A program made the translations under genes and the position numbers. A stretch of 64,000 nucleotides of DNA from contig WFMF01000251.1 of assembly GCA_011033025.1 (NCBI GenBank), positions 62,001 to 126,000 on the forward strand, in the 5' to 3' direction. How positions within the stretch are numbered: the first letter of the stretch is position 1; each line of letters begins with the position of its first letter. Of the stretch, positions 391 to 54,900 are shown piece by piece. The notes beneath the pieces were generated by a model. The model had not been told where the DNA came from, did no database searches, and was given only the letters and a program-made list of their open reading frames with translations. The stretch comes from Beroe forskalii (Eukaryota; Ctenophora; Nuda; Beroida; Beroidae).

Positions 391-3300
391 CTGATGTCTT
401 TGAGATGAGTGGACTCCATCCGCCTGCTGCCGGCCATCAGGTTACTAAACGTCGTGAACATGTCACTCGTCAAGGTGACGAAGTAGTTCTGTATCATGCG
501 ATCCACTTCACTCGTATTCTTTGTACCGTAGTCCCTGTCTACTGCATCCGAAAGGGAGGGATGAGGGAGGGGAAGAGGTGGAGTGGGAGAAGAGGGGAGG
601 GGTGAGTGGGAGTGGGGTGAGGTGGACTGGGGTAAGGGGAGGGGTGGGGGGGGTGGGGGAAGAGGGGGAGTGGGGTGAGGGGAGTGGGTCGAGGGGGTGA
701 GGGGGAGTGGGTTGAGAGGGATTGGGGTGGGGGGAAAGGGGTGCGAGAGGGGAGTGGCGTAAGAGCAATTTGGGCTTAGGGTCGGGGTGTGATGGGGTGA
801 GGGGAGGGGAGTGATGTAGGATTTAACTAACTACACAGATGGTTGTATCGTATACAGTAACTCACTACACAGATGATTGTATCGTATGAAGTAACTCACT
901 ACACAGATGGTTGTATCGAATGCAGTAACTCACTACACAGATGGTTGTATCGTATGCAGTAACTCACTACACAGATGGTTGTATCGTATGAAGTAACTCA
1001 CTACACAGATGGTTGTATCGTATTAAGTAACTCACTACACAGATGGTTGTATCGTATAAAGTAACTCACTACACAGATGGTTGTATCGTATGCAGTAACT
1101 CACTACACAGATTAAGTAACTCACTACACAGATGGTTGTATCGTATACAGTAACTCACTACACAGATGGTTGTATCGTATGCAGTAACTCACTACACAGA
1201 TTAAGTAACTCACTACACAGATGGTTGTATCGTATGAAGTAACTCACTACACAGATGGTTGTATCGTATGCAGTAACTCACTACACAGATGGTTGTATCG
1301 TATTAAGTAACTCACTACACAGATGGTTGTATCGTATTAAGTAACTCACTACACAGATGGTTGTATCGTATACAGTAACTCACTACACAGATGGTTGTAT
1401 CGTATACAGTAACTCACTACACAGATGGTTGTATCGTATACAGTAACTCACTACACAGATGGTTGTATCGTATACAGTAACTCACTACACAGATGGTTGT
1501 ATCGTATACAGTAACTCACTACACAGATGGTTGTATCGTATACAGTAACTCACTACACAGATGGTTGTATCGTATGCAGTAACTCACTACACAGATGGTT
1601 GTATCGAATGCAGTAACTCACTACACAGATGGTTGTATCGTATGCAGTAACTCACTACACAGATGGTTGTATCGAATGCAGTAACTCACTACACAGATGG
1701 TTGTATCGTATGATGTAACTCACTACACAGATAGTTGTATCGTATGCAGTAACTCACTACACAGATGGTTGTATCGTATGATTTAACTCACTACACAGAT
1801 GGTTGTATCGTATAAAGTAACTCACTACACAGATGGTTGTATTGTATGAAGTAACTCACTACACAGATGGTTGTATCGTATAAAGTAACTCACTACACAG
1901 ATGGTTGTATCGTAAGATTTAACTCACTACACAGATGGTTGTATCGTATGCAGTAACTCACTACACAGATGGTTGTATCGTATGCAGTAACTCATTACAC
2001 AGATGGTTGTATCGTATGATGTCACCACGTGTCACGGGCAGGATGTTATCCTTGCTATCAAAAACGCTGCTCCCCGTCACATACACGTCGTACACCAGAG
2101 AACCCTTGGTTTTCAGAATGGTGTCTGCTGAACATGCGATGTAGGATTTCTTCATCTTCAGAACAGACAAATCATTCACCTGCGACGTTCAATGATTCAA
2201 TCAATTTCAAAGCAATTAGAAGCAATAAATTTATAAGCTTTTTCAATTATCGGACCTTTGTTTTACGAGTCAGCAGTGACCATCAATTAGTCGGTCATTG
2301 TTATGCCCTCTCAATTGTTTTTAAACGTATGGTATTCAACGCGTACTTTAAAAGTTTAGACACTGATAAAAGGACAATACATAGTATACAATTCCCTTCT
2401 GAGTCTATACAACGAAACAGGTGTTCTGTTGAAGTAAAACAATTTGACGATGTCAGTGATCATTGTTTGAGCCCCTAACTAAAGCTCGACAGTGCTATGC
2501 TACTCACACCGAATTGGAACTTTGGAATAATGGGAATTCAGAAATGTAAATTTGGAATTGACACTTGACAGCCACTTAATATTATAAGCATTTGTTGCAA
2601 ATCCTGGTAATGACAGATCATTAATCATAACACAATGGCACGTATCCCACTGACCTGGTAAAGTGGTAATGACAGATACAAACACAATGGCACGTATCCC
2701 ACTGACCTGGTAATGACAGATACAAACACAATGGCAGGTATCCCACTGACCTGGTAATGACAGATACAAACACAATGGCAGGTATCCCACTGACCGTGAC
2801 ATAGAAGATAGGCGCACTCTCTGTGAAGAGGGTGTAACTGAGAGCCGCTAGACACAGCACGTAGCTGCAGTGTCGGGATATGGGCGGTGTGCAGTGCAAG
2901 AGGACTCTCCTGCGCAGCATCAGCATCTTCCACAACGCGAATATGTGCACTCCTGCCGTGGGGTTAACGTTCACATTCGATTATTCGAAGTGGTATTTTA
3001 TTCGTAGAATGTGGGCCTATTGCAGCAGCTTTATGTGATAGGTTTAAAGGTAGGTTACTTACGCCACTGGGATGAATTCTAGTTTTATCGATTATATCAG
3101 ACATTTAAAATCAAATCACTCAGAAGCACGTTGATGGTAGAAACGTAAGCCGCTGACCCTGAGACTTGAAGAGATCGTACATGCTTCCCACTGTGCTGGG
3201 CTTCACCTCCATGAGGAGGGGCGCTGCCTCGGTGCATCCCTCGTTCCACTCCACCATGTACTGGATCAGGGCCTCGTACCTGCCCGGGGAGTCCACCACC

Positions 3301-3637
3301 TCGTGCCCCAACTCCACGAGCCGCTCCTCGTGCTGGCGCAGCGCCAGGAAGTTGTCACACACCACGCCCACACTCTTCATGCGGGCCCCCCGCTCAGCAA
3401 CATTCGCAACCTGCAGTTCGTAATCGTACATATTTCCGTGTATATCCAATAAATCCACAAATTTCAAACCCCTTGATCCAGTCACCTGTTTCATTATGTA
3501 GGCTGCAATGCCAAAGTGGGAATGGACCTCGAACATCAAGATATCGTGCTGCACGTTGTGGGCCCCACTTGGCATGGCTTTGAACTCGACCCCAGATAAA
3601 CTGTAGTTTTCAGGGTACTTCCATTCGACGATGTTAC
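391..3637 (-). CDS. DENND11: DENND11 (LCHN) homologue, C-terminal part, four exons
   Basis: DENN-domain protein of the DENND11/LCHN family, probably a Rab-related regulator; the cellular role is inferred from family only. Visible minus-strand exons: about 3130-3637 (starts GNIVEW, contains GVEFKAMPSGAHNVQ and the family signature ERGARMKSVG), 2795 to about 2977 (ALWKMLMLRRRVLLH), about 2026-2179 (KKSYIACSADTIL, YDVYV) and 391-541 (EVDRMIQNYFVTL). These align in order with human LCHN. Acceptors TTGCAG, GTCGCAG and GATGCAG are clear. The 5' edge of the second exon is not resolved: the best AG (near 3018) would put a TAA at about 2980 in frame, so there is either a small sequence error or a splice site I missed. 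The N-terminal exon(s), and the final exon, were not found. A LINE lies directly upstream of the first exon. Three donors in a row carry tandem repeats. Confidence 0.85.
542..817. repeat. G-rich low-complexity stretch
   Basis: Intron of DENND11. From about 556 to 815 the plus strand is almost pure GGGGAGTGGGGTGAGG-type sequence. It is a purine-rich run with many G-triplets and G-quadruplets, so quadruplex formation is plausible. No coding signal. Confidence 0.8.
818..2025. repeat. 34-bp minisatellite, about 35 copies, starting at a splice donor
   Basis: Unit core is CACTACACAGATGGTTGTAT on the plus strand, with variation mainly in the few bases after TATCGTA. It occupies nearly the whole DENND11 intron between the exons at 541 and 2026. 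On the minus strand (the gene's strand) every unit contains GTGAGT, and the array begins exactly at the exon's donor region (GTGACATCATACGATAC), so the array seems to have grown from the exon-intron border. Confidence 0.95.
2180..2630. other. DENND11 intron, unique AT-rich sequence
   Basis: Between the exons ending at 2795 and starting at 2179 on the minus strand. A 149-codon open frame exists on the plus strand but overlaps the exon antisense and has no recognisable domain. I see no gene. Confidence 0.6.
2630..2794. repeat. 44-bp tandem repeat, about 4 copies, anchored on a DENND11 splice donor
   Basis: Core GGTATCCCACTGACCTGGTA on the plus strand. On the gene's (minus) strand each copy reads CAG followed by GTCAGTGGGATACC, the same sequence as the real donor at 2794 (ACG then GTCAGTGGGATACC). 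Each copy therefore carries a good 5' splice site. Confidence 0.9.
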
Positions 3638-3654
3638 CTGCAACGACAGTGCCT

Positions 3655-5450
3655 TGAGTCAAGTAGAGTCTATTCTAGAAATATTCTATGATCATATACT
3701 CGTATACTTAAAGATAGATGCATTGAAAATCGCGAATAATTCACATAAATTTACAGATGTACTTGCTTTGATTGTTAACAAATCTTTCCAGGAAGGTGTT
3801 TTTCCTGAGCAAATGAAAACCGCGAGAGTGATTCCAATCCACAAAGAGGGCTCAAAATCTAGTGTATCTAATTACAGGCCAATTTCCTTGCTTTCCTCTT
3901 TCTCCAAAATTTTTGAAAAACTTATGCATAACCGTTTGCTTAATTTCTTAGATTCAAACTGCTCACTAAACGAGATGCAATATGGATTTCGCCCAGGTCG
4001 ATCCTGTGAACATGCCCTTCTAAGTGCCCAAAACATAATACTTGAATCGCTCTCTAAACGCCAAATCTCTCTCCTACTGCTCATAGACTTCTCCAAAGCA
4101 TTTGATCTAGTGGAGCACTCCAAACTACTTGATAAATTATCCCATTATGGCGTCCGTGGAACCCCTCTCAAGTGGATTGAGTCATATCTCAGCGGCAGAA
4201 AACAATTTGTCTCTGTCAACGGTGGAAATTCTGATTTAAGGGATGTTAGATACGGGTACCACAAGGAAGCATTCTAGGACCTCTCCTATTTATAGTATAT
4301 ATAAATGATATACCTGGAGGTTGCAGACTTTGCAAGGTTTATACTATATGCTGACGATGCCAACATTATACTTACTGCAGATACAATAGAATCGATTAAT
4401 GATCAGCTAAACAGGCTTGTCTCGAGCCTTGTTCAGTGGGTAGAGTCTAATGGACTTGTATTAAATCTTAAGAAAACAAAGTACATGATCTTCTCCAGAT
4501 CCAAAAATTTACAACTACCTTCGCCGCTAATAATTTCTAAAACACCCATTAAATTTGTAAAGGAAGTCCGCTTTCTCGGTGTAGTTATTGACGAGTCGTT
4601 AAATTGGTCAAAGCATGTACAAACTGTTGCTAGCAAAATGTCCCGTTATGTAGGAGTCATGTATAAAATTAAAAAATACCTACCCCTTACAGCTAGGCTA
4701 CAAATATATCATAGCTTTGTCCAGTCTCATCTAAACTTTTGCTCTCTGGTATGGGGCTTTTCGGCCAAATCGCAACATCGATACTTTAGGAAACAAAAGA
4801 AAGGACTACGAGCTGTTGTTCCTGGTTTTATAAACTATAGATACAGGGATGGAGAACCCCTGGCCATACCAAACCCCATTTCGCTGACTGAATTTTGACA
4901 ATCACGGAATCGTAGCACTCAATGCATTCCTATTTCTGCGCAAAGTCCGACACTTTCCTTCTGAAATTCCCAAATCAGTTGCCTCTACTCTGTCTCAAAA
5001 GATAGCCCCATTCCAGGTTCAACACACGGCTCTTAAGTGAAAATTGGTTAAAATCCTATGATAACCATTTTTATAGAAGGCTCTTTTTTCAAAGTCCTCT
5101 TCTTTTCCTAAGTTGTGATATTGAAGACTCTCTACCCCTGTTAGTTTCCTGACCACTAAGTCTTACAAAAATCATGTTAAAAGTAATCTGTTAAAATTCA
5201 GAATGAGGCGAACCAACTGAATGGCAAAGTTGTAATTTTCCCTTTATAACATAGCCGGCCTTAGGAAATCCAGCCGGAATATTCATAAATGAAAGTTTTG
5301 CAGGTTGTAGGTACCTTAATCTACATTAACCACGACTATGACCAGCGGGGGAATTTTTAATTTGTATTATGTGTGTTATTTTTCATAGATAATTTACCAC
5401 TTGAAGATGTTTCACTTGATGATAAATATAATAAATATAAATTTTAGCTC
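3655..5450 (+). mobile_element. Non-LTR retrotransposon (LINE, Jockey/CR1-like reverse transcriptase), degraded
   Basis: Encodes the middle and C-terminal part of a LINE reverse transcriptase. Fingers: FPEQMKTARVIPIHKEG and SNYRPISLLSSFSKIFEKL; then FRPGRSCEHALL; motif A LLLIDFSKAFDLVEHSKL; motif [13 protein letters not shown]; motif C YADDAN; thumb VRFLGVVIDESLNWSKHV. The reading frame changes around 4250-4340, so motif B, motif C and the upstream part lie in three frames, and the endonuclease end is absent (5' truncated). It is antisense to DENND11 and begins about 20 bases upstream of an intact DENND11 acceptor. The 3' end is approximate, set at an AT-rich tail with AATAAATATAAA near 5430. 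Confidence 0.85.
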
Positions 5451-5793: not shown

Positions 5794-8700
5794 TCATAAG
5801 GGATTCCGGGAGAGTTTCCCGATGACGCGGATCAGGGCCGCGTTCTCGTCCCTCAGTCGCTGGTTGTCGCTGCTCACTTGCTGCAGGCGCTGGGGGAGGT
5901 ACTCGTCGTAAGATGGGTTCAATGAAAGCATGGAAACTTTTATTTGAAAGCAAGAAAACTTTTAATGCTTTTAAACACAAAAGTCTGGTGTATTATATTA
6001 TATACAACATTATTGATTATAGTTGGACAATGGTCACCGTACATCGAGCACAATAATCTTTTCTAGGTCTATCAATTAATTGGACTGAACGAAACAGTTC
6101 ACACCAATTGCTTGGTTTTAATTTTCACAGAATGATAGCGGGCGGGATTTCTTGATAGGAACAATCGGGAGTCAAGGAATATAAGACAGTTTAGAGGAAC
6201 TTAGTGCAGTTTGGGAAGTGCTGTATCTGACTTTCGACGGGTAGTTAGCTGATGATGCATGCACGTCTATCTATGGTGTATCTACCATAATGAAATATAT
6301 CGTTAATATGGTTCTTCAGGAACTATCACCCAACACATAGGATCCATCAATAGACACAGTCTTTCTACAGCTCATGCGTGCGTGCATGATGTCAACGTTA
6401 AACAAACAATCTATATGAGCACACAGAATAACGTACAACGGACTTGGATTTAAAGGTCAAAGGACGAAGTATATGTGCGAACATTTCGGCACGGCCGCCT
6501 CAGGGCAGCTATCGTACAGTTTCTATACTTGCTTAGATGTCTATCTTTCGTACTGATATCGTGTAAGAGTGTAAAGTGAATTTTCTATGATCAAGTCAAG
6601 TCGCATGTGAACACAAATCAATAACAATTTGATGCAAATTCCCCGTTTACACGATACTGAGAAGATATGCACGAGTATTTGAGAACATGGGGATACTACA
6701 TTGGAGGCCGTGGCACAAGAAATTCCGGTTACTGTTTACCTCTCCCAGGACTCATGGAGTTCTCAGAGGCCCCCAGTGCCTCGGCCGTCTGCCAACGAGC
6801 CTCGCTACCTACACCCAAGAATGGTCAGTGACTCCCAAAGATCCCCAAAGATCATACGAAAGGTGAGATTGCATATCCAAGGCCCCATGACACGATTTTA
6901 ATCGTAAGAGTTATCAATAGTTACAGAATGGTGGAATACTAGATCATTTCTCAGATAAGAAAACCAAATTTGATACTGTAAGTGCTGCTACTCACCCTCA
7001 AGTCCTCTTCGAGATCTGAGATTTTCTTTTTCATCGCTTCATTTTCTTTTTCCAGCGTCGTTATTTTCAGCTCTCTTTTTCTCAAGTCTTCCTGGTTTCG
7101 GGCAAGTGCTTCAGCACTCTCACTGTATCGTTTCCTTTCTAATTCCAGTTCCTGTAGTGAGGATTGTGTAAGGTAAGGAAACTGCAAGTCCATTGTAATG
7201 GGGTACATTTGCACCTTTCATATATCATTAAGATGTTAATGATTGGATAAGGACGTCAGACAACGCGAAACTCAAAGCGCCCCCACCCACCTCAGCGAAA
7301 TTCAAAGCGCCCCCACCCACCTTAGCGACATTGAAAGCCCCCACCCACCTTAGTGAGGTTCAAAGCGCCCCCATTCACCTTAGAAAGATTCAAAGCGCCC
7401 CCACCCACCTTAGCAAGATTCAAAGCGCCCCCACCCACCTAAGAAAGATTCAAAGCGCCCCTACCCACCTAAGCGAGATTCAAAGCGCCCCCATTCACCT
7501 TAGAAAGATTCAAAGCGCCCCGACCCACCTTAGCGAGATCCAAAGCGCCCCCACCCACCTTTGAAAGATTCAAAGCGCCCCCACCCACCTTAGCGAGATT
7601 CAAAACGCCCCCACCCACCTTAGCGAGGTGGTCCTCCTGCTCCTTGCTCTCCGCGGTGTCCTGCTCTGGCTCCTGCTTCTGCGGCGTGCCCGGCAGGTCG
7701 TCCTGACTGACATGCTGCGTTGATCTCCTCTCATCCCGCTTCTTCCTGGCGATCTTCTTCCGGACCACTTCCGCCTTGTCGGAGGCGGACTCCGTGTTTC
7801 CGGGCGAAGTGACATCGCTCTCCGGGCTCTTCTTGTTTTCTTTGTCCCAAACCACCGCTCCCGTGTCCGTTATGGACACTGTTACAGCAGCTTGCCGCTT
7901 CTTGGGCTCTGTGTCAGAGTCAGGTCCGTTGGGAATGATGGTGGGCGGGGGACCTCCCTTAGGGAGCGCCAGGTGTTTCGTCGGCTCCTCCTCCTCTTCC
8001 TCCTCCACCTTCTTGTCGGCAGAGTTCACCTCGTCCATGGTAACGGCTTGCGTGGGTCGCCGGTCCTCGCGCTTCCTCCTTGACACGACCTTCCTCACCA
8101 CCTCTGCCTTGTCAGTGGCACTGTCGTCCGTGTTGATGACTGGCACGGAGGGTTTCTTTGGTGTCGTCTCAACCTCTTGCTTCTTCTGGAATTGGAGCTT
8201 GTAATGAGGGCAATGGGGTAAACTGGAATTTATTTTACAGCATATGATTGAAATCTGAAGAGATCGACGGAAAATGATAGTGTCATTTAAGAAACGCTAT
8301 CATTTTGTGTAACCTCTGTTAAAACCACACGTGTCCTAACCATCTCTACCAACATGCTATCTAACCCATCTCACCGCTGGCGTTGAGACTGGAGTGTCGG
8401 AGGGAGGTCTCTTGGCAGCCACAGGAACATCCTTCTCTGCCGCCTTGTTGGGGGTGCGGGGTCCCCACGCTGGTACAGCTGGTCCTGGCTTACTCTCCAC
8501 TGCAGCTGCTGGCTCGTTGTTAATGTTCTTAGGTCGAGGTTTGAGGGGTGGAGGTGCCTGGTAGGGGGCAATATGAGATAGCAAGGAAAAGGGAGACAGT
8601 TTAAGAGGAAAATAGAATCAAAACAGTTGAATTTTCGCAGTTTCAATATTGCAAAACTTCTTGAAGTAAAACTTAAACCATTCCTTTTCCTCAGCTAACC

Positions 8701-14700: not shown

Positions 14701-17700
14701 ATACGGAAACTTGACCGCTAATTAGGGCGTGATCTAATCTGCCCAGCGCCGCGAGATAGTGCTACATGTTATTATATAGTATCAAACTCTACTTTTAGCC
14801 AAAGTTGTTCGAAACCATCAGTGCACCTTTAATGCAGTTCAAACGCTGAACAAGAATTGCGCCTGCCAGCACAACTCTTGTTTGTCCATTGTTCCTGTAT
14901 GCAGGCGCTTAATTTCCCTCCCCCGTGGTGCTTGAAGTTGTTGTTTGCTTAGTATCATGATACAACACGTGCATGCTGTCCTACTTCTAGTGAGAGTATA
15001 ACCTTAGCTAATCTAACGGCGCGTAGTTATACTGTTGCATTTATTGCAAAAAGGCTGGTGCGTAAGAGATCCAAATAGTTTCGTATCTATATCACATGAA
15101 ATTTCAATATGGCGCTATCATCTATAACGTGAAATATCAACATGGGTTGACGCATAACACATTAACATCAGTCAAACAGTTATTATTTGACAAACCCTGT
15201 CAAACTTTTCAGAGGGCCCTGCGCACCTTCGGACTTCGACTTGATTGAATTATTTCAATTTGACGAAAACTTTCATGTTTGCCTTCTCAATAAACATTAA
15301 ACAGCTCTTGGACAATGGACACTCTACCTTATTGATATTCATTCCACTGTAATCGTTACTAGTTGCATATATACTATTACTGCGGCGCACTTTGATATAT
15401 TTTGACTCATTCTGCGCCGCGCAAGAACATACATCAACAATACATGATCTCCGCAAGCGTTCAATTGCGCGCGTTGTGCGCGCGCAAATGTATGAGTTGC
15501 TAGGAGACTCGTCTGTATGACGTTTTTACGCCACTTTTATGACGTTTTTACACCACTTTTATGACGTTTTTACACCACAATCATTTTCCGGGCACTTTTC
15601 AGAAATTACAGTAGTTGTATTGCAACCCTGGACCTGCTATACACATTTCCTATTTATCACCTTCCCAAACCACGATCTCTGCTAACCCTCTTCAATGCCT
15701 TTTTGTAAAACAAAAAAGCGTTGGGGAGGGAAAAAATATACGAAGAATCAGGAACAAAAATGGTACCATAATTGACAGAAAAAGGTTAATATTCGAAAAA
15801 TTTCAAATGATATTATGGAACCCAAAATCAAGTCCCCTCAAATCCCCTCCCTAAAACCCCTACTGTTCTATTGGCGATTCTTATATCCACTAAAAGTTAG
15901 GGGTCTTTGGACTACATAATGCAGGAGTACAGACTGGAGAGTTAGAAATTCATGTCACATTTAGTCACCACATAACATACTACAAACTATGGATACATAA
16001 ATAAAAACACAGGCAACTATGCGGTTTAACGTCATCAACTCACTACTTTGCGCTATGATAATGACGTCATCACACTATATATTATGTTAACTTTGGCATA
16101 CTTGGGATATGCCGTCTACTTGAAGTAGGTGCAAATTGGCAAATATGCACTCTATATCACACACCATAAATTTCTATTGGTACATTGCTAAAACTTATAT
16201 ACATTCTACAAATATACCACTAATCACACCGGATACTCATTACTCAGCTATCAATACATTGCTTATTAATACAGTCAAAATTGGATTTAAAAGTGGACAA
16301 ATTCTACACCAAGCGATTTTGCATGGATTCTATAGTTTTTTGCATGAAAAATCGATCTAACAACTTTCCACACCCCTCCGGAGTGTGAAAAGTGCCGAAA
16401 ATCAATTTTTAGCCGAGGCGCAGAGGACTGATATGTAAAAAAATCGTATCTCGGCTCAGGAAGGTCGTAGAGACTTCATCTTGGGTGGAAAATGTGCGCA
16501 ATGAGCCTGTTTATATACAATTGTTAACAAAAATATGCCCTCAAATGCTCAGGAACGGAGTTACGGGCGAAAAACAGATTTTTTGGGCAGGCACAAGACC
16601 TGCATAAGGCGAATTTTGTATCTCAGTCCAGGAAGGTCGTAGAGACTTCATCTTGGGCGGAAAATGTGCGCAATGGCCATGTTTATGTACAATTGTTCAC
16701 AAAAATATACCCTAAAATGCTAAGGAATGGAGTAACGGGTGAAAAACTGTTTTTTCTGGCAGACGCAAGACCTGATTTAGGCGAATTCCCTATCTCAGTC
16801 CAGGAAGGTCGCAGAGACTCCATCTTGGTCGGAAAATGCGCGCAATGACCATGTTTATATACAATTGTCAACAAAAAAATGCCCTAAAATGCTCAGGAAT
16901 GGAGTTACGGGCGAAAAACAGATTTTTTGGGCAGGCGCAAGACCTGCTTAAGGAGAATTTTGTATCTCAGTCTAGGAAGGTCGTAGAAACTTCATCTTAG
17001 GCGGAAAATGTGCGCAATGGCCATGTTTATATACAATTGTTGACAAAAATATGCCCTAAAATGCTCAGGAACGGAGTAACGGGCGAAAACTAATTTTTTG
17101 GCAGCTAACAGGCCTGATATAGAAGATTTTTCTATCTTGGTCCAGACATTTATTCCAGTCCTGCATGGTCTTAGTCTTAGTAAAACGGCCAGGGTCGGTT
17201 TAATCGGCCAGGCTGGTGGCAGCCATGCTGAGCATGGAGACTATCCCTAATACGCTAGGCTAAGGGTGTGAAGTCCTGAGTGGTTTTTAGGCCACCCTAC
17301 TGCCAGGGATATCCTCAGCTGAGAGCAGCCAGCCGTTCCTGGACCCCTCTGGACCGGCGGGCTGCCAACGCCCGTGGCAACAATCAGACTGCAAAGCAAG
17401 ACAAGGCTTGCCTGCAGATTAAGTCAGAGATCTGCCAAAGGCGGCTATAATGCACCACCTCTCTTTGTCTAGATGATTCACTGGGAGGTCTGACCCAACC
17501 AGACTGTGTAAATATTATTCCCACCGATTGGGATTTAACTGGGCTCAATGGGCAAAGCCCAGTCCTTTATGGTGGTTAATCGTTACCTCGTTTTAGACAC
17601 ATTTCTGTACTCTCTTCCTACTTCCTGAGTTGACCATTCCAATTATTTTCTGCTCAGCCGGAAGTCTCTATGGGTGTACGAAATTTCATGTCAGGATACT

Positions 17701-32998: not shown

Positions 32999-32999
32999 A

Positions 33000-34556: not shown

Positions 34557-37500
34557 ATGTTGGCAGTACAGAATCGGAAACGGAAACGCTTGCACAACAA
34601 GATATCACAGAACGAAACGGGCGAGGACACAAACTACGATATTATCGTTAAGAAGGACAAGAAGAAAGTCGAGAAACCCAAGGGCTTAACGTCCAGCCAG
34701 AAGAATGCTCGCCGGAAAGCCAAGAAGAAACTGGAGAAGTTGAAAGAAAGAAAGCAGAGCGCGAGGAACGGGAGAAGGTTTTATCGTCGTTAGAGCAGCA
34801 CGCGCTGTCTCAAGAGCAACTCAACCTTTTCCACAGCTCGTCTGGCAGGCGACCCAACACGTCGCTGGCAAAGGAGCAAGTGCGACGTTCAGCGGTCATA
34901 GTGAGTCACAGGAAGAAGAAGAAGAAGTGTAGTGGGAATGTGATGAAGATGATGGAACCAACAGAAAAGGAGGAGGAGGTGAAGGAGGATACTTCTTCTT
35001 CAAGTGAGTCAGAGAGTGAGGAGGCACCAGGTGCTACTGTGACAGAAGAAACAGCCGAAGATGAAACGCCTACGTCAGAAGAGCAAAAAGTTCCGGAGAG
35101 TGTTACCAAACAACCCCAGGAAACAGTCGAGAAACCGGCTTCTGATGTGTCAAAAGCAAAACGTACTGTCAAAGAACAGGAACCAAGAAAACCCTCCAAC
35201 TTTATCAGGTTAATACACAAACCAGATATCATGCAAAATGTCATGTATTTGATGGGACGATTCAAGGGGATATGAATTTATATGCTATGTCATTGTCAAT
35301 TGTCAGGTGTCACAACACTTTGCCAGGTTTCACAACACTTTGCCAGGTTTCACAACACTTCTCGCAATCAAATTTAAATAAACAACAGCGAAAATCATGA
35401 AAACACTCCTTTCAGCGTTGAACGTGACGACTTGATCCAGGAAGCCAGACTTCAGCTGCCTATCCTAGGAGAGGAACAAGTCATAATAGAGAAAGTGAGC
35501 GAGCATGATGTGGTGGTGATAGTTGGCGCCACGGGGTCTGGGAAAACTACGCAGGTACCCCAGTTCCTCTACGAAGCTGGGTACACTCAACACGGAATCA
35601 TAGGTTAGAAACCACGAATGGTATTTGGCTGTCTGGAATGGTGTTAGGTCATGTTCTGTTCATTTAAATCATGAAAATTTTCGATAAAAATCAGTCCATC
35701 CTCCTCCAAAATGTTACTGATTGCCGGGGTCCTCATTTTATTCGTGACAGCACTGTCCCTCAGGAGTAACGGAGCCTCGCAGGGTGGCAGCCACCAGCAC
35801 GTGTTACAGAGTCAGGAAGGAGCTGAACTTACCCACCGTCTCTTATCAGATCAGGTTAGGTGAAGTAGTGAGAATATACTCTTCTTTACACTAACAAAAC
35901 GATAATGAAACATTCGTTTCTCTATAAACTCAGCAATAAAGATTTAATTTTTTAGATTCCAAACAAGACTCAAAACACCCAGTTAATAGTTATATAGGAT
36001 TATAGGGTGTTCCTCTGTAAGTGAGTGGATATTGGGGATCAAAGACAAAATTTGACTTTTCATTTTTATGATGAACATAAAGGGCTCATGTCAGACCAAA
36101 CAATGGTACTTACGTCATGAGCCAAGCAACGGACCTAACTGCAGCCATGATATGAGCCGATATTGTCCCTTCTAAGTCGAATTATAAGCTATTTTGTAGA
36201 CTACAAAGGGTACGAGGAAACCTGTCAATTGGACGCATGGTAATCATTCATCCCTTCATTTCGGCGAAGATTTTATTTATTGATGACTGGTAAATGGAAA
36301 AGAAGTGATGAGAAATGAAGCAAAAGTTTACCCAGGTAAAGGTGAGGCAATCAAATATGGTTCAACTATTTGGCCAATTTTTGAAATGTTACCAGCATAG
36401 AGGCATTATAAATGGGCATGGTTTAGAATGGGTTAATTTTTCTTTTTTAGCCCATTCTACGACTATCAATCAGGCATGACCTGTGATCATTACTCACCAC
36501 ACTGCTATACAGAAATAAAGTTATATTGCTCATCTAGGACTAGATGCAGTTTAAAATGACCTAAATTGTATGTTTTTCATAGACTCACTTTATGTCCCTG
36601 AAAAGCCATCTCCTTGGACTTCTCATGAATACATAATGTTCTAAGATTTTAAGATTGTCTGCGACCTTGTTTAAGCTTATTGTTAACATGATCAAGATCA
36701 AACATGATGAAATAATTTTCACAAATTTGAAGGAAATTTTATGGCCACTTTGACAGTCCACTTTATCCATGGGACAGCCAAAATTTCAAATTGGACAAAA
36801 AAGTGGAAAAAGTGAATGTTAGCTACCCGCTCCCCACACTTCTCGGAAAAGTTAAAATCAAAAAGCTAATTGAAATCGTGCAGCTTCTTTTACTTTTAAT
36901 GCGTTCGTAACACGAACATCATTGTAATCTTGACAAATTAAAAGGATGAGGTTGTCAAGCTACCCTTGCCAATAACAATGGGCACGGTTCTCGGAAATGA
37001 AAATTAATTGAAATCGGGTACTGCATTAATAACACCTTTAACTTTTAATGCGTTCGTTCGAAACACAAAATCATATATATATTGAAACTTTGATACTACC
37101 ACTGTGGCCATGAATAAGTTTGTTTTTGCGGTCGTTTCGTTCTTACACTTCAGTTATGCGGTTCAGAATATGTCTGTCCAAGATCCTATCAATATGACTG
37201 AAAGGGAGAGCAGCTTGCTGTCTAACTGCAATGCGGTGACATTCCCACCCTCCACTACGCGGAGGCTGAGGGAGAGTGAGTTTTTACCTGAATTCCATCT
37301 TTGTGGCTTTTATTGGCAATCAATAGAAGCTGCGGATGCGCATTTATTGATAACTCGAATATGGGCGTATCAATTGATAGACTGTTGGGAATACTGCACA
37401 TATTTCTGGACATGCCATGTGTTCTCCTACCATACTGTTGATTGGGAGTGCTCCCTTTACGAGAAACAGGGTGATGGTATTTATGGCTTCAGGTATTTTT

Positions 37501-40500
37501 CTATGAAGGACAATGTCAGGGAAGTATTGTTTAGTTTTGTTCGACCATGTGTGGAGTATCATGGTAATATATCTTCTCTCCTACTGGACCATCCTGGAAA
37601 TCTATCCGGATCCTCTCTCATCAGGCATAGGTTTGGAGATAAAGGATACCACATTTCCAACACTGTTATGATTTCGAAAGCTTTTGACTTTTCAATGTGC
37701 CTCTCGATAGATACATGCACCAGACAATCTGATTCGATGAAATTCCCAATTGTTACCCTGTCTAAATGCAACGGGTCATGGAAACAGTTGTGGAGAATAT
37801 CAAAACTGGACACAACTCACTATGACGGATGGCTTGATGTTGTATCCATAATATCAGAACACACATGCATGGCAATTGGCAGTCAATTGTCTTCTGATCG
37901 TGAGAACTGCGATTCTTTTCCTAAATTAGTCAAAAACCAAAACGGAATAAATTCAGGGAACGGTACTATGTTGGGAGAGGGAATGATCAATCAATCCTAC
38001 CTCATGGAAGTTCGTCAAGATTGGTATTCTGGGACCTTTTATATTTTAAGGAGACTGCAAAGGAAAACGTTCATTCGAACCGGGAAAACGGATTTCAAGT
38101 TGTTCTCGTATCCGGTCTTCGTAAACAATTTTTCACTTCTCCGGATCTTTGAGCCCTACCCCAGGGGTGAGATATGTGAGCTAGAAGACCTCCAAGTGGA
38201 GGAGGGGACATTCCACAATCCCAGCAACGTGCCTTACTTCATGGCAGGCAGGGAAGTTACAATCACGTGCAGTCCAGGGTTCGGGGTGCCGCAACTCAAC
38301 TACTCACGGAAACAAGCCTTTACCTGCTACAACAGCTCCTCCAGACCCATGCCCTGCGCACGCATCCCATCCATCCCAACCATCCCAACCATCCCACCCA
38401 CCATTCTTGAAACAGGTGTTTTTGATCATTCAACGGAATCTGCCACTTTTACCGAATCGAGACAAAGTCCTCTGTATCACGAAGCATGGTGTTATTCTAC
38501 CTTAATTTTCATCTGTGCTGCACTCTAAGCTCCAGTCTCTAATAACAGTAATGTAATAGCAGCTATACTTCTCAGAAGCCAGAACTTAAGAAAAGCTTTA
38601 TTACCTCTCACTATAATCTTGACAAATAAAAAGGATGAGGATGTCGACCTACCATTACAAATATCAATGGACACGCTTCTCGGAATTGAAAATTAATTGA
38701 AATCGAGTACTGCATTAATAACAACTTCTTTTACTTTTAACGCGTTCGTTCGTAACACAAAATCGTATACAGTATTAAACTTTTGATACTACCACTGTGG
38801 CCATGAATAAGTTTGTTTTTGCTTGTTTCGTTTTACACTTCGAATATGACAGAAAAACGGTTGTTAAATACCTATTTTTAAAAAGTGTTGCACAAATACT
38901 AAAGTTGCCGTATTTTTTGGGATTGCAATAATCAGTCAAAATGCATCGTTCAATGATTTATTCTTAGACCCCAACTAGTCGGTGCATACCGCGCGGTTAC
39001 ATACTCCGGAACATATCCTGAGTTGTCGGTACCTACCGCTTCTGCGCGCGCACCTATTCAATGCAACCAGAATCATTAGTCAACACAAAAAGTGCCAAGG
39101 CTAACAGAGTTTCAACAAAGCCGTAATTTCTTCGTTATTTTAGGGGTCTATGATAACAATGGAACAATTCCAGAATCCTAAAAGTTTGTCCGATTGAGCT
39201 GAAACATCAAGTAGGTCATTCCTGAAAATTATGCCTGAAAATTATGCCTTTTTATACGCTAATGACGTAGCAAATTCGGGATTTTTGGGCTAAACACTGC
39301 CTTTTTCGACCCAAAGGCCAAAAATCGCCAGTTGGGATTCTGAGATAATTAATACACTCTTTGTTGCAGATACGAGGGAGATGTCACCGAAGACACCAAG
39401 ATAAAGTTCATGACAGACGGTATGATCATTTAGCACCTAGTTTTAGAGTTTATTGTCTTCCTCGATTCAACCTTAATTTAGAATAAGATGAATAATAAAA
39501 TATCTAGAATCGGTAACCATCACGTTTTTCACCCTAATCCCCTCTTCCCGGGTACACCCCTAAGAGCTGTAATCAGTTAAATGGTAAAATTAAAAGATCT
39601 GTAAAATATCCGGTAACCATCACATTTTCACCCTTATCCCTCTCCCCAGGTATCCTCCTAAGGGAGCTGCAATCCGACTTCCTCCTCTCAAAGTACAGCG
39701 CGCTGGTAATTGACGAGGCTCACGAGCGCAGTGTCAACACTGACATCCTTATCGGAATGTTATCCCGCGTAGTCCCCCTGCGTCGTAAGCAAGGTGCCCC
39801 GCTCAAGCTGATCATCATGTCCGCCACGCTGCGAGTCAGCGACTTCACGCTGAACCCCGCGCTGTTCCCGGCGCCGCCCCCGGTGGTGGACGTGGGGGCG
39901 CGGCAACACCCGGTTACCGTACACCACAACAAGCACACCCGGCCTGACTACGTCAGGGAGGCGTACAGGAAGGTCTGCAAGCTGCACAGGACCCTGCCAC
40001 CTGGAGATGTTCTGGTGTTCCTCACTGGCGTTCAGGTACATTACACCTGTTATATTAGCACTTGTTTTATCAATTGTGGAGCTTTTTGTTTCTACACTTG
40101 GTGGAGGGAAAGCGTCGATTAAATGGTAATCTTTCTGCATTATGCAAGAATACCGGCAAGAAATTAAACATGATTTCAAGAGAAAACTTGTGGTTCAATG
40201 TTATCATGGTGATGCTTAGTACTCAAAGTCCAATTAATTTCGCAGGAAATAAACAAGATGATACACCTGTTGCGGAAAACATTTCCAGAGAAAGTGGCAG
40301 CTGAGCCCAAGTCAGGCTCTAAGAAGAAAAGTACAAAGGAAGAGGAGGAGGAGGAAGAGGACGCCTTCCAAGCTGTAAAATTAGACAGATACGATCCCTA
40401 CGAAAACAAGGATGATAACGTGGAGCCTGCCAAGGAAACAGAGCTGTTAGAAGATAACGAGGACAGCAATGACGTAACTGATGACGTCACAATAGACTCG

Positions 40501-43500
40501 GACTCTGAGGATGAGGATGTGGAGGTGACAGCGCACGACAAATCCCTCCCACTGGTCGCTCTGCCGCTCTACTCAGCACTGCCCCCCGCTGAGCAGCAGA
40601 GAGTCTTCACTTCCCAGTCAGAGGATCACCGACTGGTGGTGGTAGCTACTAACGTGGCTGAGACATCCCTCACCATCCCCGGTATTACGTACGTGGTGGA
40701 CTCGGGCAAGGTGAAGACCAAGGAGTACTGTCCTGTGACCGGCATGACGCAGTTCAGAGTGGTGTGGATTTCCCACGCTTCGGCCGAGCAGCGAGCAGGG
40801 AGGGCGGGAAGGACGGGGCCAGGGCACTGCTATCGGCTCTACTCCACTGCTGTCATGGGCAACGTTATGGAGGAGCACTCAGAACCGGAGATATCCAAGA
40901 AGCCAATCGATGGTTTGGTGCTGCAGATGAAGAACCTCAACATCCACCGTATCATGAACTTCCCCTTCCCCACGCCCCCGTCCTTGTCCATGATTGAGAG
41001 TGCTGAGCGGGAGCTGGCTTTCCTGGGTCTGCTGCAGGCTGGCGAGACTGTGACGGCCCAGTCAGTCCTCAAGATCACCGAACTAGGCAGGAAGTGTGTT
41101 AATCTGCCGGTAGCACCGCGTTTTGCGAAGCTTCTCCTTCTTTCTGCAGAAGAAAATATCCCTCAGTACGCCCTGACTCTGGTATCTGCCCTTTCCGTCG
41201 GACATCTCTTCACCGGACCTGTGCCCGGACCCTTCAAGCCCCGGGCTGGACCTAGTAAACTCCTCGGAGACTTCATGGTCATCCTCACTGCCGTGGGAGC
41301 GTGGGAACACGCAGGATCTGGTCAGAGCTGGAGCTCCACGCACCACCTCCGACATCGAGCTCTCGAGGAAATACGGCAGTTGCGACGACAACTGGGGCAC
41401 ATCCTCAGCGACACATGTCACGCGACGCAACGCGTTACTGCTCACGCGACGCCAGGTCACGTGACGCCAGGTCACGTGACAGCTCTGAAGCCCCCCGGCG
41501 TGAAGGAGGTGGTGGCGCTGAGGAGGCTGCTGACAGTGTGTCTGGGAGACCACATAGCCAAGCTGGAGACGAGCAACCCTGATCTGTACTCCACTGAAGT
41601 GCTGGAGGACAAGGCACAGCTCCATAGGGAGAGTGTCCTGAATGGTAAGTGTTACGTGTTGTCACATGATACGTGTTGTCATTTGTTGTCACATGTTACG
41701 TGTTGTCACATGTTACGTGTTGTCACATGTTACGTGTTGTCACATGTTACGTGTTGTCACATGTGACGTGTTGTCACACGTAACGTGTTGTCACAGGTTA
41801 CGTGTTGTCACATGTAACGTGGTGTCACATGTTACGTGTTGTCACATGTAACGTGGTGTCACATGTAACGTGTTGTCACATGTTACGTGTTGTCACATGT
41901 TACATGTTGTCACGGTTATCGCAGTACACTGACACATAAAAGTAATAGGTTTTGCAGTACACAATTGTCCGAGAGTTTGATGGAGACTGGAGTTGCAATT
42001 ACTAAATACTCATAATAGTCATCCGCCTTTTACTACTTCTTATCTCTTATCCATTATCAATTTGTCGCTGCCTCCTGGAATCGTGACCCTACCCTCTCTT
42101 TCTCAGGTCTCCACTCTGAGTACGTTGGGTTCTGCACTCTGGAGCAGGAAACGAGTGGTGTCAAGTTGAAGACGGTGTTTGCTGTTGAGGAGGAGTGGCT
42201 GCCCACTCTTCTGCCCTCCAAGTGTACCTTCTCCGATCCACTCGAGCAACCTCCTCCTGCTTTCTCTCCCCTAACTGGTGCAGAATTTTAATTTGTCTTT
42301 TGAGCCTTTTCTGAGTGCACACCATTGACCGAATGCAATTCGAAAGTTCTCGTTATAAAGTTTCTAATTAGCTATAATTCAAAACAAAATTCAATTCTAA
42401 AGCGTCCGTTCAGCCGAAAGAACTACATTTCCGATACTATGTCTCCTCTCAGGGGAGGTGATGTGTCACAGAACGTCCACGTTTGGTATCCGAGGGTGGG
42501 TGTTACCCTCCCTGGAACTGCCCCACCCACCCGGAATGAAGCGGTTCAGGGAGTTCGCTGCCAGTCTCCTCGAGGGGAAGGTGAGTGTGGAACTGAAAAA
42601 CTAAGCTCTATCTCCTTCCGGTAAAATTTAGATTTTTGGACGCCATTTTTGCTCCGAGTCCTCACATGGGCAATGTTGGACCTATGAACTCGAGACCACT
42701 GTCAAAATGTTGGTACACGCCCTGGCCATCCTGGCCAGCTCATATCTCAAATTCGTGTTTTACAATATGAGAGGGGTGACCCCCCCATAAATGAGTTTTA
42801 TTGGTATTTTGGGGGGGATGAAGCCCAAAAAAAACCAAGCCCCACCCTACTTTTCCGATTCTTGGGCTAGGTTTTTTTTGGTTTTTTTAGGTTTTTTTTG
42901 GTTTTTTTTTGGGTTACATTTTATTAATTTCTATCACCTTTCCAAACGATTTTTAGGTTAAAATTCGCTTGTTTTATGATGTCTACCATATGACTGTAGA
43001 TCCACAGGAGCTTGGTATGTAGCCTAAACGACCTATAATTGTGTAAGTTACTGAATATAATTGAATATTTTCACTCATCTAATCGTTCTGAAATTGGTCC
43101 TTAACTCCTTACACTGGAGTCTGGTGGGTACTTTTTCCAGGTCAGGTCCAATCGAGCTTAGCCTAAGGGGTCATGTTACTGTTCTAGGACCTAAATGTTT
43201 ATCAAAAGCTGTTTGAACATGGTCCTTATTATAGAGTTATGGGCTTATCTGAGCTTCTTGTCAATTGTATTCTACGTACTTACTTAGGCTGATCCTCAGC
43301 TTTATTGCTCCTGCTTTATTGAGTCCTGGAAGACCTTTTTTTGGACCTAACATTCCTCCCTGCTGAACCAAGGCCAATCATATCCTTACACTACCTGACT
43401 GAGTGACCCTAACCCATGGGATACTTTACAGAACCTTTTCTGGCCCTTAATTTTGAGCATATTACAACTAGAGGCATATACATCGCAACATTATTACCAG

Positions 43501-48925: not shown

Positions 48926-51900
48926 TCATATAGATTCTATTCTCACCACCCTTTCCCAAGTATACACTACCTCTCGCAGAACAGCCGTGGTGACTTTCTT
49001 GACCAGACACAAGGCAGACAGGACGACGAAGCTGACGTTGTAGACAAGGATCACGTTAACGTTCTTCAGCCACTCAACTGTACGGTAGTGACCCAGCAGA
49101 TCAAACCTCGTCAGACCTGATAATTGATAAATATAGTGATGAATATTGAATAAACATTAGGACAAATATTATGCAAGTTATTGGACAAGTCGAGTTCAAT
49201 TTCTAGAAGCAAGATTAATGGTTGCAATAATAAGATAGTTGCTGATATTAGTAGGAAGTGGAACAATAAACTAGAGCGAAACTTTAACCTAGAGTTGCAG
49301 TAAGAGTCCTAAGAAGTGAAACTAACCTAGAGTTGCTGAGAGTGGTAAGAAGTGAAACTAACCTAGAGTAGCTGAGAGTAAGTAGTGAAACTATAACCTA
49401 GAGTTGCTGAGAGAGTTAAGAAGTGAAACTAAGCTAGAGTTGCTTAGGGTGGCTGAGAGTAGGGGTAAGAAGTGAAACTAACCTAGAGTTGCTGAGAGTT
49501 GTAAGAAGTGAAACTAACCTAGAGTTGCTGAGAGTTGTAAGAAGTGAAACTAACCTAGAATTGCTGAGAGTGGTAAGAAGTGAAACTAACCTTGAGTTGC
49601 TGAGAGTGGTAAGAAGTGAAACTAACCTAGAGTTGCTGAGAGTGATAAGAAGTGAAACTAACCAAGAGTTGCTGAGAGTTGTAAGAAGTGGACTAACCTA
49701 GAGTTGCTGAGAGTAGGGGTAAGAAGTGAAACTAACCTAGAGTTGCTGAGAGTAGGGGTAAGAAGTGAAACTAACCTAGAGTTGCTGGGAGTAGGGGTTA
49801 GAAGTGAAACTAACCTAGAGTTGCTGAGAGTAGGGGTAAGGAGTGAAACTAACCTAGAGTTGCTGGGATTAGGGGTAAGAAGTGAAACTAACCTAGAGTT
49901 GCCGAGAGTAGGGGTAAGAAGTGAAACTAACTTAGAGTTGCTGAGAGTAGGGGTAAGAAGTGAAAATAACCTAGAGTTGCTGAGAGTAGGGGTAAGAAGT
50001 GAAACTAACCTAGAGTTGCTGAGAGTAGGGGTAAGAAGTGAAAATAACCTAGAGTTGCTGAGAGTGCGGGTAAGAAGTGAAACTAACCTAGAGTTGCTGA
50101 GAGTAGGGGTAAGAAGTGAAACTAACCTAGAGTTGCTGAGAGTAGGGGTAAGAAGTGAAACTAACCTAGAGTTGCTGAGAGTAGGGGTAAGAAGTGAAAC
50201 TAACCTAGAGTTGCTGAGAGGGGTAAGAAGTGAAACTAACCTAGAGTTGCTGAGAGTAGGGGTAAGAAGTGAAACTAACCTAGAGTTGCTGGGAGTAGGG
50301 GTTAGAAGTGAAACTAACCTAGAGTTGCTGAGAGTAGGGGTAAGGAGTGAAACTAACCTAGAGTTGCTGGGAGTAGGGGTAAGAAGTGAAACTAACCTAG
50401 AGTTGCTGAGAGTGCGGGTAAGAAGTGAAACTAACCTAGAGTTGCTGAGAGTAGGGGTTAGAAGTGAAACTAACCTAGAGTTGCTGGGAGTAGGGGTTAG
50501 AAGTGAAACTAACCTAGAGTTGCTGAGAGTAGGGGTAAGGAGTGAAACTAACCTAGAGTAGCTGAGAGGGGTAAGAATTGAAACTAACCTAGAGTAGCTG
50601 AGAGTAGGGGTAAGGAGTGAAACTAACCTAGAGTTGCTGAAACTGGTGAAAAGTGAAACTAACCTAGAGTTGCTGAGAGTAGGGGTAAGGAGCAACTCAT
50701 AACTAGGAACACCACACAGTTGATGATGATTGTAGTTACAGATGTGTCTTTGGGCTTGGGTATCAACCACCTGAGATGATATAATTTTTCGGTCATATGT
50801 TAGTACTGCAAATGGATCGCCCAGTGGAATTGGCATTCCCCAGTAGAAATTCCCTATCATTGTCTGAATGATTAACATGATTGTTTCATTTGTTTTTAAA
50901 AGCCCCTCTCTTCTAGGCCCTCTTTTCCTCAACTAATTTGTTTTCTGATCATCACAGAATTTCCCCGAATATCATCTTGGATGAAAAGTCACACTGCGCC
51001 ATGAGACGATCCTCCTCACAACAGGAAAGTCAGGCCTCCTTCATATTTTGTGAACAATTTACGTAATATGAATATTGAATAACTCAATAAGAAGATGAAT
51101 ATCGAGATATTCTCCGGGGCAGTATAGCAGAAATCACGCTGCAGTATAGCAGAAATCACGCTGCAGATCGGTGCTGCAAGCAAAATCGTCTGAAAATTCG
51201 TTGAAATTATATTAGCAAAACAATGCTACTTTTCTGTGAAGGGTCTGATGGGTTCCTAGAATCACATCAGATCAGATATAAAAGGGCAGGTATCAAGTCA
51301 TCCTCCTTATTCAAATTCAGTCCACTTAACTTTTATTTTCCTACCCTTTACGATTTACAGTTCCAGTATAAAAAATTAATTACTGGAAATTAGATATCCC
51401 CATTCTGCACTTTAATGACAACAAAATGATTTGCTCTAGGTCAATCTGTTTTCGCACAAACGGGCTCTTCAAGAGCGACGAGTTGACACACTACGGCTGA
51501 TAATGATTTGCACTTGACAATAATGTATCCTTCCCGCCTTTATTTAGAAATCACCAGGTATCTTTTCCGTTTACGACGCTGCTATTCAGTAGTCACATAA
51601 TATGATTCATGGGGAAAGTAGGTAATAATTTGATGAGTTTGTGCATGACTATTTTCATCTACTTTCATTGCTTTAACAATTCTTGCCATTCGAAGTTTCT
51701 TCAGAGTATTTCGTATCATTTGGGGCGTGTGGAACTCGCTGGGTGTAATTACTAATTATATGAAGAAACAAATTAATGGCAGTACAAAAATAGCAATTGT
51801 TGACATAGGTTGTTCGGATTGGAGCACTTCTGTACAGTAGTATGTAGATTATATCAATACTTTACTAAAACTCGAAGTATAATTAGGATTAAGAATGATT

Positions 51901-54900
51901 AATTTGAAATCCATATTTAGAAAAGGCACCAGAAAACTAATGGAAAAGTACGACCATTTGGACCAGAATGGCAAAGTCATGGCTTACTACATGTGGATAG
52001 ATGGAACTCGGCAAAACGTCAGGGGTAAGACCAAGACAATAGACAAGGCGGAGGTAACTTCTTTAGATGATCTACCGATGTGGAACTTCGACGGGAGCAG
52101 CACCAATCAAGCCAGCGGGGACGATAGTGACGTGTTCATCAAGCCTGTCCGCATCTTCAAGTGAGCTTTTACACCACTCTACTTTCCCACTTTGACACTA
52201 CTACACCTTGACATCACTCCACTTTCTCACTTTTACACCACTCTACTTTCCCACTTTGACACCACTCCAATTCGACACCCTCCACTTTCCAACTTTGACA
52301 TCACTCCACCTTGACACCACTCCACTTTCCCACTTTGACATCATTCCACTTCGACACCACTTCATTTTATCAACTTGACACCACTCTACTCTCCCACTTT
52401 GACACCACTCTACTTTCCCACTTTGACACCACTCCACTTCGACAACCTCCACTTTTCAACTTTGACATCACTCCACCTTGACACCACTCCACTTTCCCAC
52501 TTTGACATCATTCCACTTTGACACCGCTTCATTTTCTCAATTTTACACCACTCTACTCTGTGTTTGAATGAGGCTATCAATGAGAATAAGAAATGCGTGA
52601 GACAATTGAAGAATTGAAATAAAACGTTTGTTGTTGTTGTTTTTTTTTTCTTGAATATGCTGTTTGTAAAATATGACGGGTAACGATAGTTACCCAATAT
52701 TTACCTTTAAACCTTGTAAACCTAAACCTTGTAAACCTTGTAAACCTTGTAAACCTTGTAAACCACTCTGACACCACTCCACTTTGACACCACTCTACTT
52801 TCCCACTTTGACACTACTCCAATTCGGCACCCCTCCAGCTTGACACCACTCAAAGTTCCCTCTTTGACACCACTCCACATTGACACCACACCACGTTCTC
52901 ACCACTCCACTTCAAAACCCGTTCACCTTGACACCACTCCACTTTCCCACCTTGACATCACTCCACTTTGACATCACTCCACTTTGACATCACTCCACTT
53001 TGACATCATTCCACTTTGACTCTACCCCACTTTCTCACTTTGACACCACTCCATGTTGACACCACTCTACCCTGCAGGGACCCATTCCGTGGAGGTAAGA
53101 ACATCCTAGTCCTGTGCGAGTGTTACTGTCCGGATGGAACTCCCCACCCTACCAACAGACGGTACGAGTGTAACCAGATCATGCAAGCGTGCAAGGAGGA
53201 GAGACCTTGGTTTGGCATTGGGCAGGAGTACACCTTGTTTGACCAGGATGGCAGAGCACCACTTAACTGGCCTGTTAATGGATTCCCCCGCCCGCAGGGC
53301 CCCTTCTACTGCGGAGTAGGAGCTAACAACGTGAACGGCAGGAACATAGCCGAGGCTCACTACAAAGCCTGCATCTACGCGGGCATCAAAGTGGCGGGCT
53401 CCAACGCTGAAGTGATGCCCTCCCAGTGGGAGTACCAAGTGGGGCCCTGTGAGGGAATAGAGATGGGGGACCACCTGTGGGTTTCCCGGTTCATCCTGGC
53501 CCGTATAGCTGAGGAGGAGAAGGTGGTGGTGAATCTGGACCCCAAACCCATCTCCGGGGACTGGAATGGGGCTCGGTGTCACACCAACATCAGCACCATG
53601 GTTATGAGACAGCCAGGGGAATGGAACACATTACCAAAGCCATCGAACTGATGAGCGAACTCCACGAGGAGCACATAGAGGAGTACGATCCTACACATGG
53701 GCTGGACAACGCTAGACGACTCACTGGCCACCACGAGACACAGACCATTCACACCTTTAAATCCGGTGTAGCAAACAGAGGGGCCAGCATCAGGATACCC
53801 AGACAATGTGAGAGAGACGGCTGTGGGTACTTTGAGGACAGACGACCTCCCAGTAACTGTGATCCCTACGCGGTGACAGCTAGGATCTGCAAAACCATCT
53901 GCGACGTGGGGGATGCCGGCGACAGCAAGATTTCAGAATGATAGGACGATATTAACGATTAAGGAAATTATCATTGACAGTTGATCTTAAAACCAGCCCA
54001 ATATGGGCTGAGCGAACTAAGTAAGATTTATTTTAACAGCTATTCAAAATTCAATTTTTACTTTGCACTATTCAAGACGTGTTCAGATCTGTTCGAAGTT
54101 ATTTTTATTTTTCATAATCTAAGTATTTAGCTGATGTTTTAGAGTTATTCCTTTTTTTTAAATAAATCTAACAGTTCTTTTTAATAAAGCCGGAGCTTGT
54201 TACTTATTGCATGGTAGATGTTATAAGTTTTATCCGTGTACCACATTTTTCTAAATTTAATCAAACTTACTGCTTATCAGTATATCAAACGTACGATAAT
54301 GTGTTTTTTATTACTGAATTTCGTATATATTGTTTTAGTTTTGTCTTTTAGAAAAGCTAAAGCGATTCTATCTAATAGTTGAATAAAACTGTCGTTTCAT
54401 CAATGCAAAAAAGTAGTACAAATGGGTCACGATTCAAAATTCTGAAATAGAATACTTTCTTAACTTTGTCCAACTGTAATGCCACGTAAAATTTCAATAG
54501 TTAACGAAGTCTAGCCCACCACAGACAAGCACAACAGAATTCAAGAACTGCAATGTGGCAAACTACCCTTTTGATGAGTAATGGTGGTGAGAATGGAGTT
54601 AGAAAGAGAATGAAACCCGAAATGAATAAATCTCTGTAATTGGATTATTAATAGTAGTTGTCCCAACACTCGAAAAAAGATAGCAAACAATTTTTCTGAA
54701 TGGCAGGGTGGCCTAACATGTGCGGTGCGCTGCCCTCCCCCCTAAGGGGGGGGGGGGGTGTAGTACAATGGGTTGGGAAGGTTACCTGAGATAAGAAAGA
54801 AAGCTCGTCAAGAAAGATTTAAATATGAGTGGTAAGGCGGTGATACTGTGAGATTTGACCAGTACGACTCGTCGACTCAGTGCTGTGTTGCATGTTCATA

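Follow-up and report, generated by a model that had tools for sequence, protein, structure and literature searches.

The window, i.e. the whole stretch of 64,000 nucleotides of Beroe forskalii DNA that was analysed, contains seven multi-exon genes (DENND11, MYPT, an ERK3-like kinase, PFK, DHX37, LMBR1 and glutamine synthetase, GS) and a DNase II reading frame that was taken as one exon. Exon borders were identified using tblastn (six human proteins as queries), Pfam and a small spliced-alignment script; those of DENND11, the PFK acceptor at 27003 and a few others were set by hand from reading frame and splice signals. The main protein matches are approximately 40-65% identical to human. The muscle-type chain for PFK scores 421 bits vs 339 bits for matches that we take to be yeast subunits; the best chain for GS scores 273 bits and the other listed chains 206-269 bits, with no clear group separation. 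Long unbroken coding stretches are found in PFK (1.8 kb) and DHX37 (about 1.4 kb if a 39-bp gap set by the aligner is spurious), and the spliced aligner reported single-base frame breaks in PFK (27674) and GS (53614), which indicate small errors or broken genes in the sequence. The window looks eukaryotic, with spliced genes of animal type, and MYPT and DENND11 suggest an animal or close relative. The long coding stretches and the moderate identity to human speak, by general expectation, against amphioxus, which we judge less likely than not. Among viral contigs PFK had one 44% relative and GS and DHX37 had none; GS had none among genome contigs either. Rfam and ARAGORN scans of the window gave no match.

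A total of 64 splice junctions (32 donors and 32 acceptors) were placed across the seven genes, with GT or AG at every one; 51 of these were rated high-confidence, and a set of 48 was formed without the low-confidence junctions, DENND11 391, 2026 and 541, and MYPT 7619. Tandem repeats were located with TRF (79 rows, merged by hand into 41 arrays, two of which are mostly coding and were set aside). An array was called anchored when its exon-facing end lies between 40 bp inside the exon and 10 bp into the intron (-40 to +10). Twelve arrays are anchored, at eight donors (last exonic base: DENND11 391, 2026 and 2795; MYPT 7619; ERK3-like 24282; DHX37 41644; LMBR1 50664; GS 52160) and four acceptors (first exonic base: MYPT 20613; ERK3-like 24113; PFK 27003; GS 53078), and all seven multi-exon genes are affected; the GS intron contributes two of the 12. 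The original prediction had placed arrays at nine or more exon borders and in nearly every multi-exon gene, which the count bears out, the GS acceptor at 53078 being absent from its list; the junction positions it named, the exon at 33.2 kb aside, were exact or within one base (41644 for 41645 in DHX37, 52160 for 52161 in GS). The arrays at the junctions, together with two related arrays near 33 kb, are as follows.

312 to 397, minus strand: 41-bp unit, 2.1 copies, spanning the DENND11 donor at 391 with 7 exonic bases (TRF; exon weakly supported, donor score low)
824 to 2019, minus strand: 34-bp unit, about 35 copies, abutting the DENND11 donor at 2026 from intron base 7 (TRF; donor hand-set by frame and phase)
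2664 to 2795, minus strand: 44-bp unit, 3 copies, from the last exonic base of the DENND11 donor at 2795 (TRF, Pfam)
7265 to 7627, minus strand: 30-bp unit, 12 copies, spanning the MYPT donor at 7619 with 9 exonic bases (TRF, spliced aligner)
20620 to 20827, minus strand: 24-bp unit, 8.7 copies, stopping 6 bases short of the MYPT acceptor at 20613 (TRF, spliced aligner)
23833 to 24112, plus strand: 36-bp unit, 7.4 copies, running as far as the AG of the ERK3-like acceptor, with the exon from 24113 (TRF, aligner)
24262 to 24824, plus strand: 25-bp unit, about 23 copies, spanning the ERK3-like donor at 24282 with 21 exonic bases (TRF, aligner)
26179 to 27035, plus strand: 66-bp unit, 13 copies, spanning the PFK acceptor at 27003 with about 33-36 exonic bases (TRF; acceptor hand-set)
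31469 to 31852, plus strand: array of the same 37-bp unit as 32999 to 33212, with an apparent insertion between the two (TRF)
32999 to 33212, plus strand: array of a 37-bp unit, adjoining a putative exon at 33.2 kb (TRF)
41650 to 41913, plus strand: 17-bp unit, 16 copies, abutting the DHX37 donor at 41644 from intron base 6 (TRF, aligner)
49285 to 50689, minus strand: 39-bp unit, about 36 copies, spanning the LMBR1 donor at 50664 with 26-29 exonic bases (TRF, aligner)
52166 to 53067, plus strand: related 24- and 16-bp units, from the GS donor at 52160 (intron base 6) to 10 bases before the acceptor at 53078 (TRF, aligner)

Eight of the 12 anchored junctions were placed to the base by the spliced-alignment script, including MYPT 7619, where the exon ends in poorly conserved sequence. 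The borders at the other four are manual: frame, phase and the coordinates of the original prediction fixed the three DENND11 donors (391, 2026 and 2795), and for the PFK acceptor at 27003 the script favoured 27014, which likewise lies within the array, and introduced very small exons that are spurious. The putative exon at 33.2 kb matched no Pfam family.

The 12 anchored arrays are of two forms. In seven (DENND11 391 and 2795, MYPT 7619, ERK3-like 24113 and 24282, PFK and LMBR1) the junction sequence including the splice point recurs inside the array, above all shuffles, in agreement with the claim that the unit itself mostly contains the splice site; the exonic part of these units is 1 to about 36 bp. 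For example, AG/GTCAGT is present in copies of the DENND11 array at 2664 to 2795, and the 66-bp unit in PFK repeats a branch-like site, a pyrimidine tract, an AG and a start codon. In the other five (DENND11 2026, MYPT 20613, DHX37, GS donor and GS acceptor) the homology of the unit does not extend significantly past the junction; these arrays begin at intron base 6 or 7 (donors) or leave 6 or 10 bases free ahead of the exon (acceptors). The splice signal is spared, namely positions +1 to +5 or +6 of the donor or the final 6 or 10 intron bases at the acceptor.

Both ends are modelled for eight introns, and the share taken up by arrays is 54-98% in seven of them and 21% in the remaining one; the array at 824 to 2019 makes up 81% of its DENND11 intron, the remainder being mostly CT-rich arrays (558-816), the LMBR1 array occupies 89% of its intron, and the GS intron is 98% repeat. 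Such proportions would be expected if ordinary intron minisatellites filled small introns and hence touched their ends, and in the GS intron anchoring is indeed nearly trivial. As an explanation for the whole set this is unlikely: it does not account for the splice site lying inside the unit in seven arrays, for the five arrays that by TRF run 6-32 bp into the exon, or for a frequency of anchoring that is still above expectation when arrays are placed within their own introns.

With random non-coding placement and all 64 junctions, 12 of 26 arrays with a score of at least 100 are anchored vs 1.38 expected (P 2e-9), 12 of 39 at a score of at least 50 (1.94 expected), and 11 of 16 at a score of at least 250 (0.75 expected, P 7e-12); in the last class the five unanchored arrays comprise both pieces of the 33.2-kb array, a pair of 172-bp arrays and a 105-bp repeat within an intron of MYPT. 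For the 48 best-supported junctions and a score of at least 100, 9 of 26 are anchored vs 1.05 expected (P 5e-7), and with placement restricted to gene bodies 9 of 22 vs 1.24 expected. The strictest null was placement within the own intron, which omits PFK, MYPT 20613 and DENND11 391 (the other intron end lies outside the models) and takes in two junctions with weak support as well as one long intron of MYPT that is likely to conceal an exon. The numbers of anchored arrays were 9 of 24 vs 4.10 (score of at least 50; P 5.6e-3), 9 of 18 vs 3.76 (at least 100; P 1.7e-3) and 9 of 12 vs 2.81 (at least 250; P 2e-5). Circular shift of the merged arrays is a weaker test because its null allows long arrays to cover whole exons. 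Two junction positions were misplaced in its runs; with 64 junctions it gave 10 of 34 anchored vs 6.34 (at least 50; P 0.048), 11 of 24 vs 5.62 (at least 100; P 0.002) and 10 of 15 vs 4.66 (at least 250; P 0.002), and with 51 junctions P 0.053, P 0.005 and 0 of 20000 shifts, respectively. All P values are descriptive rather than proof, since the limits of -40 to +10 were picked after the arrays had been seen, the feature was chosen by the original prediction and some gene models are hand-made. Anchoring exceeds every null tried, though barely so in the circular shift at the lowest cut-off, and the suggestion that position is the property shared by the arrays is largely supported. The anchoring of minisatellites to splice junctions in this window is real and statistically supported.

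Units are 17-66 bp long and mostly unrelated in sequence, and the seeds of the arrays therefore look independent. No common core motif beyond weak sharing was found among the 20 units compared; the longest word in common, TTGACACCACT, links the unit of the MYPT acceptor with that of GS (P 0.085); shared 8-mers are mildly in excess (9 pairings vs 3.67 expected, P 0.015). The little common sequence largely supports the proposal of independent origins, and the 8-mer excess qualifies it. Introner elements are copies of one element sequence in many introns; the units here do not fit this, being largely unrelated between loci.

Most copies are 80-100% like the consensus of their own array; poorer copies (62-78%) occur here and there in the arrays of DENND11, the ERK3-like donor, DHX37 and LMBR1 and are numerous in GS (62-96%). 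Nine anchored arrays (DENND11 2026, both of MYPT, both of the ERK3-like gene, PFK, DHX37, LMBR1 and the GS donor) were examined for a gradient of copy identity from the junction, and none was found except in LMBR1, where copies far from the junction are more diverged (rho -0.41, P 0.01). At the 46 junctions that have no array close by, a search for faint duplications of two copies found none, vs 5 of 600 non-coding controls, which are unmatched for coding flanks; should junctions be hot spots, seeding would have to be rare or its products short-lived.

These data bear on the possibility that junctions are mutational hot spots, at which breakage linked to transcription or splicing (R-loops, polymerase pausing) seeds duplications. 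The excess of anchoring over the own-intron null (9 of 18 vs 3.76), the mostly unrelated units and the single ERK3-like exon (24113-24282) with unrelated arrays at its two ends speak for it; against it, array-free junctions showed no excess of two-copy duplications and the arrays no general polarity. We regard it as possible, though doubtful. For the recurring process that had been postulated, a dedicated breakage process at splice sites is not demonstrated (0 of 46 faint duplications, no common polarity in nine arrays); tolerance of extra splice sites, also named, fits the anatomy of the arrays. An assembly artefact, to which the frame breaks at PFK 27674 and GS 53614 might point, is very improbable: the copies within arrays differ from each other, and one array (37-bp unit) is split by an apparent insertion. 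We know of no assembly error that resembles mostly unrelated arrays at exact junctions.

The repeats hold many potential splice sites. By a simple score applied to eight arrays, which leaves aside the place of each site within its unit, the further sites whose score is within one unit of that of the real site number 29 in LMBR1, 21 in the ERK3-like donor, 15 in the ERK3-like acceptor, 12 in PFK, 11 in the MYPT donor and five in the MYPT acceptor array, i.e. 5 to 29 in six of the eight, and two and one in the arrays at DENND11 2795 and 391. In PFK, 10 acceptor copies were found by pattern (13 units by TRF); the last two alone open into the long reading frame, and the other eight would yield peptides of 2-35 residues. 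The frame past the donor stops within 2 bp in LMBR1 and GS and within 51-171 bp at five further donors; such early stops are expected of any intron and count for little. These frame results imply that the correct protein requires a copy at or near the exon, and we infer that the cell uses the exon-proximal copy.

Structures of this kind have been described in amphioxus. So far reported from cephalochordate genomes, with length polymorphism and somatic instability reportedly among their features, mirages are minisatellite-like duplications of intron-exon boundaries that were named in Adh3 and also occur in globins (BflGb6, BflGb9; PMC3087553) and in troponin C and PGBD5 (PMC3902484); those in Adh3 and the globins are reported to be without effect on splicing, and the authors of the globin paper describe the mechanism as unclear and mirages as a proposed source of new introns (PMC3087553). 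The original prediction, which knew of no comparable genome, had overlooked them (PMC3087553, PMC3902484). As in amphioxus, units cross exon-intron borders at donors as well as at acceptors, are gene-specific and contain many AG/GT copies; a repeat across the boundary is present in seven of the 12 anchored arrays, the other five abutting only, and both 5' and 3' intron boundaries are represented (eight donors, four acceptors). The units of 17-66 bp compare with 10-72 bp (Adh3), 60 and 108 bp (PGBD5) and 150-160 bp (globins) in those accounts; the amphioxus cases were published, in the portions available, as single genes, whereas here all seven modelled multi-exon genes of a 64-kb window are involved. 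Human variable internal tandem repeats (about 30-bp units, in segmental duplications, tied to splicing changes) are likewise minisatellites at exon-intron boundaries, but according to the part available they belong to recently duplicated genes (PMC2812944), whereas the genes here are conserved and each present once in the window. Earthworm metallothionein intron minisatellites (PMC12783039) were considered as a parallel and rejected: their mean unit is close to 180 bp, and the available text does not state that they are anchored at junctions. No genome-wide count of junction-anchored minisatellites was found in the open-access literature, among the matches listed.

The arrays could also be relics of intron birth through tandem duplication at AGGT sites, a model of intron gain reportedly due to Rogers. 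It predicts a junction-spanning duplication as the first step, and the array anatomy resembles it in the tandem duplication across splice-like sites. The model has been proposed for amphioxus globin introns (PMC3087553), and potato RdRp is reportedly a case of AGGT-type gain (PMC4974935). AGGT gain is, however, a single duplication, whereas many copies are present here; moreover, exon sequence in the spanning arrays was seen to be shared at one border only, the other border having been viewed without a systematic search. This origin appears improbable.

The reading that we favour, and consider likely, is that the arrays are mirage-type minisatellites that were born independently at or beside junctions, have grown and been homogenised, and are tolerated through use of the exon-proximal site. 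Short tandem duplications would arise, each on its own, across an exon-intron border or immediately next to one and would then expand, with homogenisation by unequal exchange or replication slippage. The spliceosome would take the exon-proximal copy, leaving extra copies on the intron side nearly neutral, and copies inside coding exons would presumably be purged; the abutting arrays look as if a repeat had overrun the intron as far as constraint allowed. Support comes from the enrichment at junctions, the unit homology across seven of the 12 junctions, the many similar-score sites, the PFK acceptor copies (two of 10 open into the long frame) and the like structure of the amphioxus mirages; the similar-score sites, together with the amphioxus data, also fit a tolerance of extra splice sites. 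Against the mirage-type reading count the lack of faint duplications at the 46 array-free junctions, the five of 12 arrays without cross-junction homology, the missing gradient (save LMBR1) and the marginal circular-shift result at the lowest cut-off; in addition, simple tolerance leaves the enrichment over intron interiors unexplained.

The phenomenon is thus of a known kind, and its density and perhaps the lineage are new. Tentatively, the window may represent a non-cephalochordate lineage in which minisatellites arise preferentially at junctions throughout the genome and a large part of all introns are anchored arrays with dozens of usable sites that are resolved by position alone. If the density holds genome-wide, it would provide many natural experiments on how the spliceosome chooses among near-identical sites, and would allow one to test directly if duplication at junctions contributes to the growth or gain of introns; mirages, so far known in a few lancelet genes, would become a pattern on the scale of a genome, perhaps in another lineage.

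The array of 37-bp units beside the supposed exon at 33.2 kb lies in two pieces (31469-31852 and 32999-33212) separated by an apparent 1.1-kb insertion (31853-32998); since the insertion splits the array, the array is probably the older of the two. The insertion contains an open reading frame, for which no clear family was found in Pfam, and a short target-site repeat is possible at the ends of the insertion. Two further arrays, of 172-bp units, are located within one intron of MYPT; their consensus units look like reverse complements of each other, and they probably derive from a satellite or transposon.

31985-32815, minus strand: open reading frame within the apparent insertion
16446-17101: 172-bp-unit array, MYPT intron
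18012-18767: 172-bp-unit array, same intron

Fragments of reverse transcriptase in two reading frames adjoin DENND11 (3600-4898).

An intron of DHX37 contains a 480-residue open reading frame (37086-38528; weak PAN-domain match, under the curated cut-off), possibly a nested gene, and the DHX37 coding stretch includes an internal 15-bp repeat (41442-41480; 2.6 copies). The reading frames of otherwise conserved coding exons of PFK and glutamine synthetase are each broken by a single base (27674 and 53614, respectively), reflecting either assembly slips or broken genes.

Both PFK (27003-28815) and DHX37 (40246-41644) contain a long coding exon without introns, which, with human exon numbers as the yardstick, suggests a block loss of introns in these genes.
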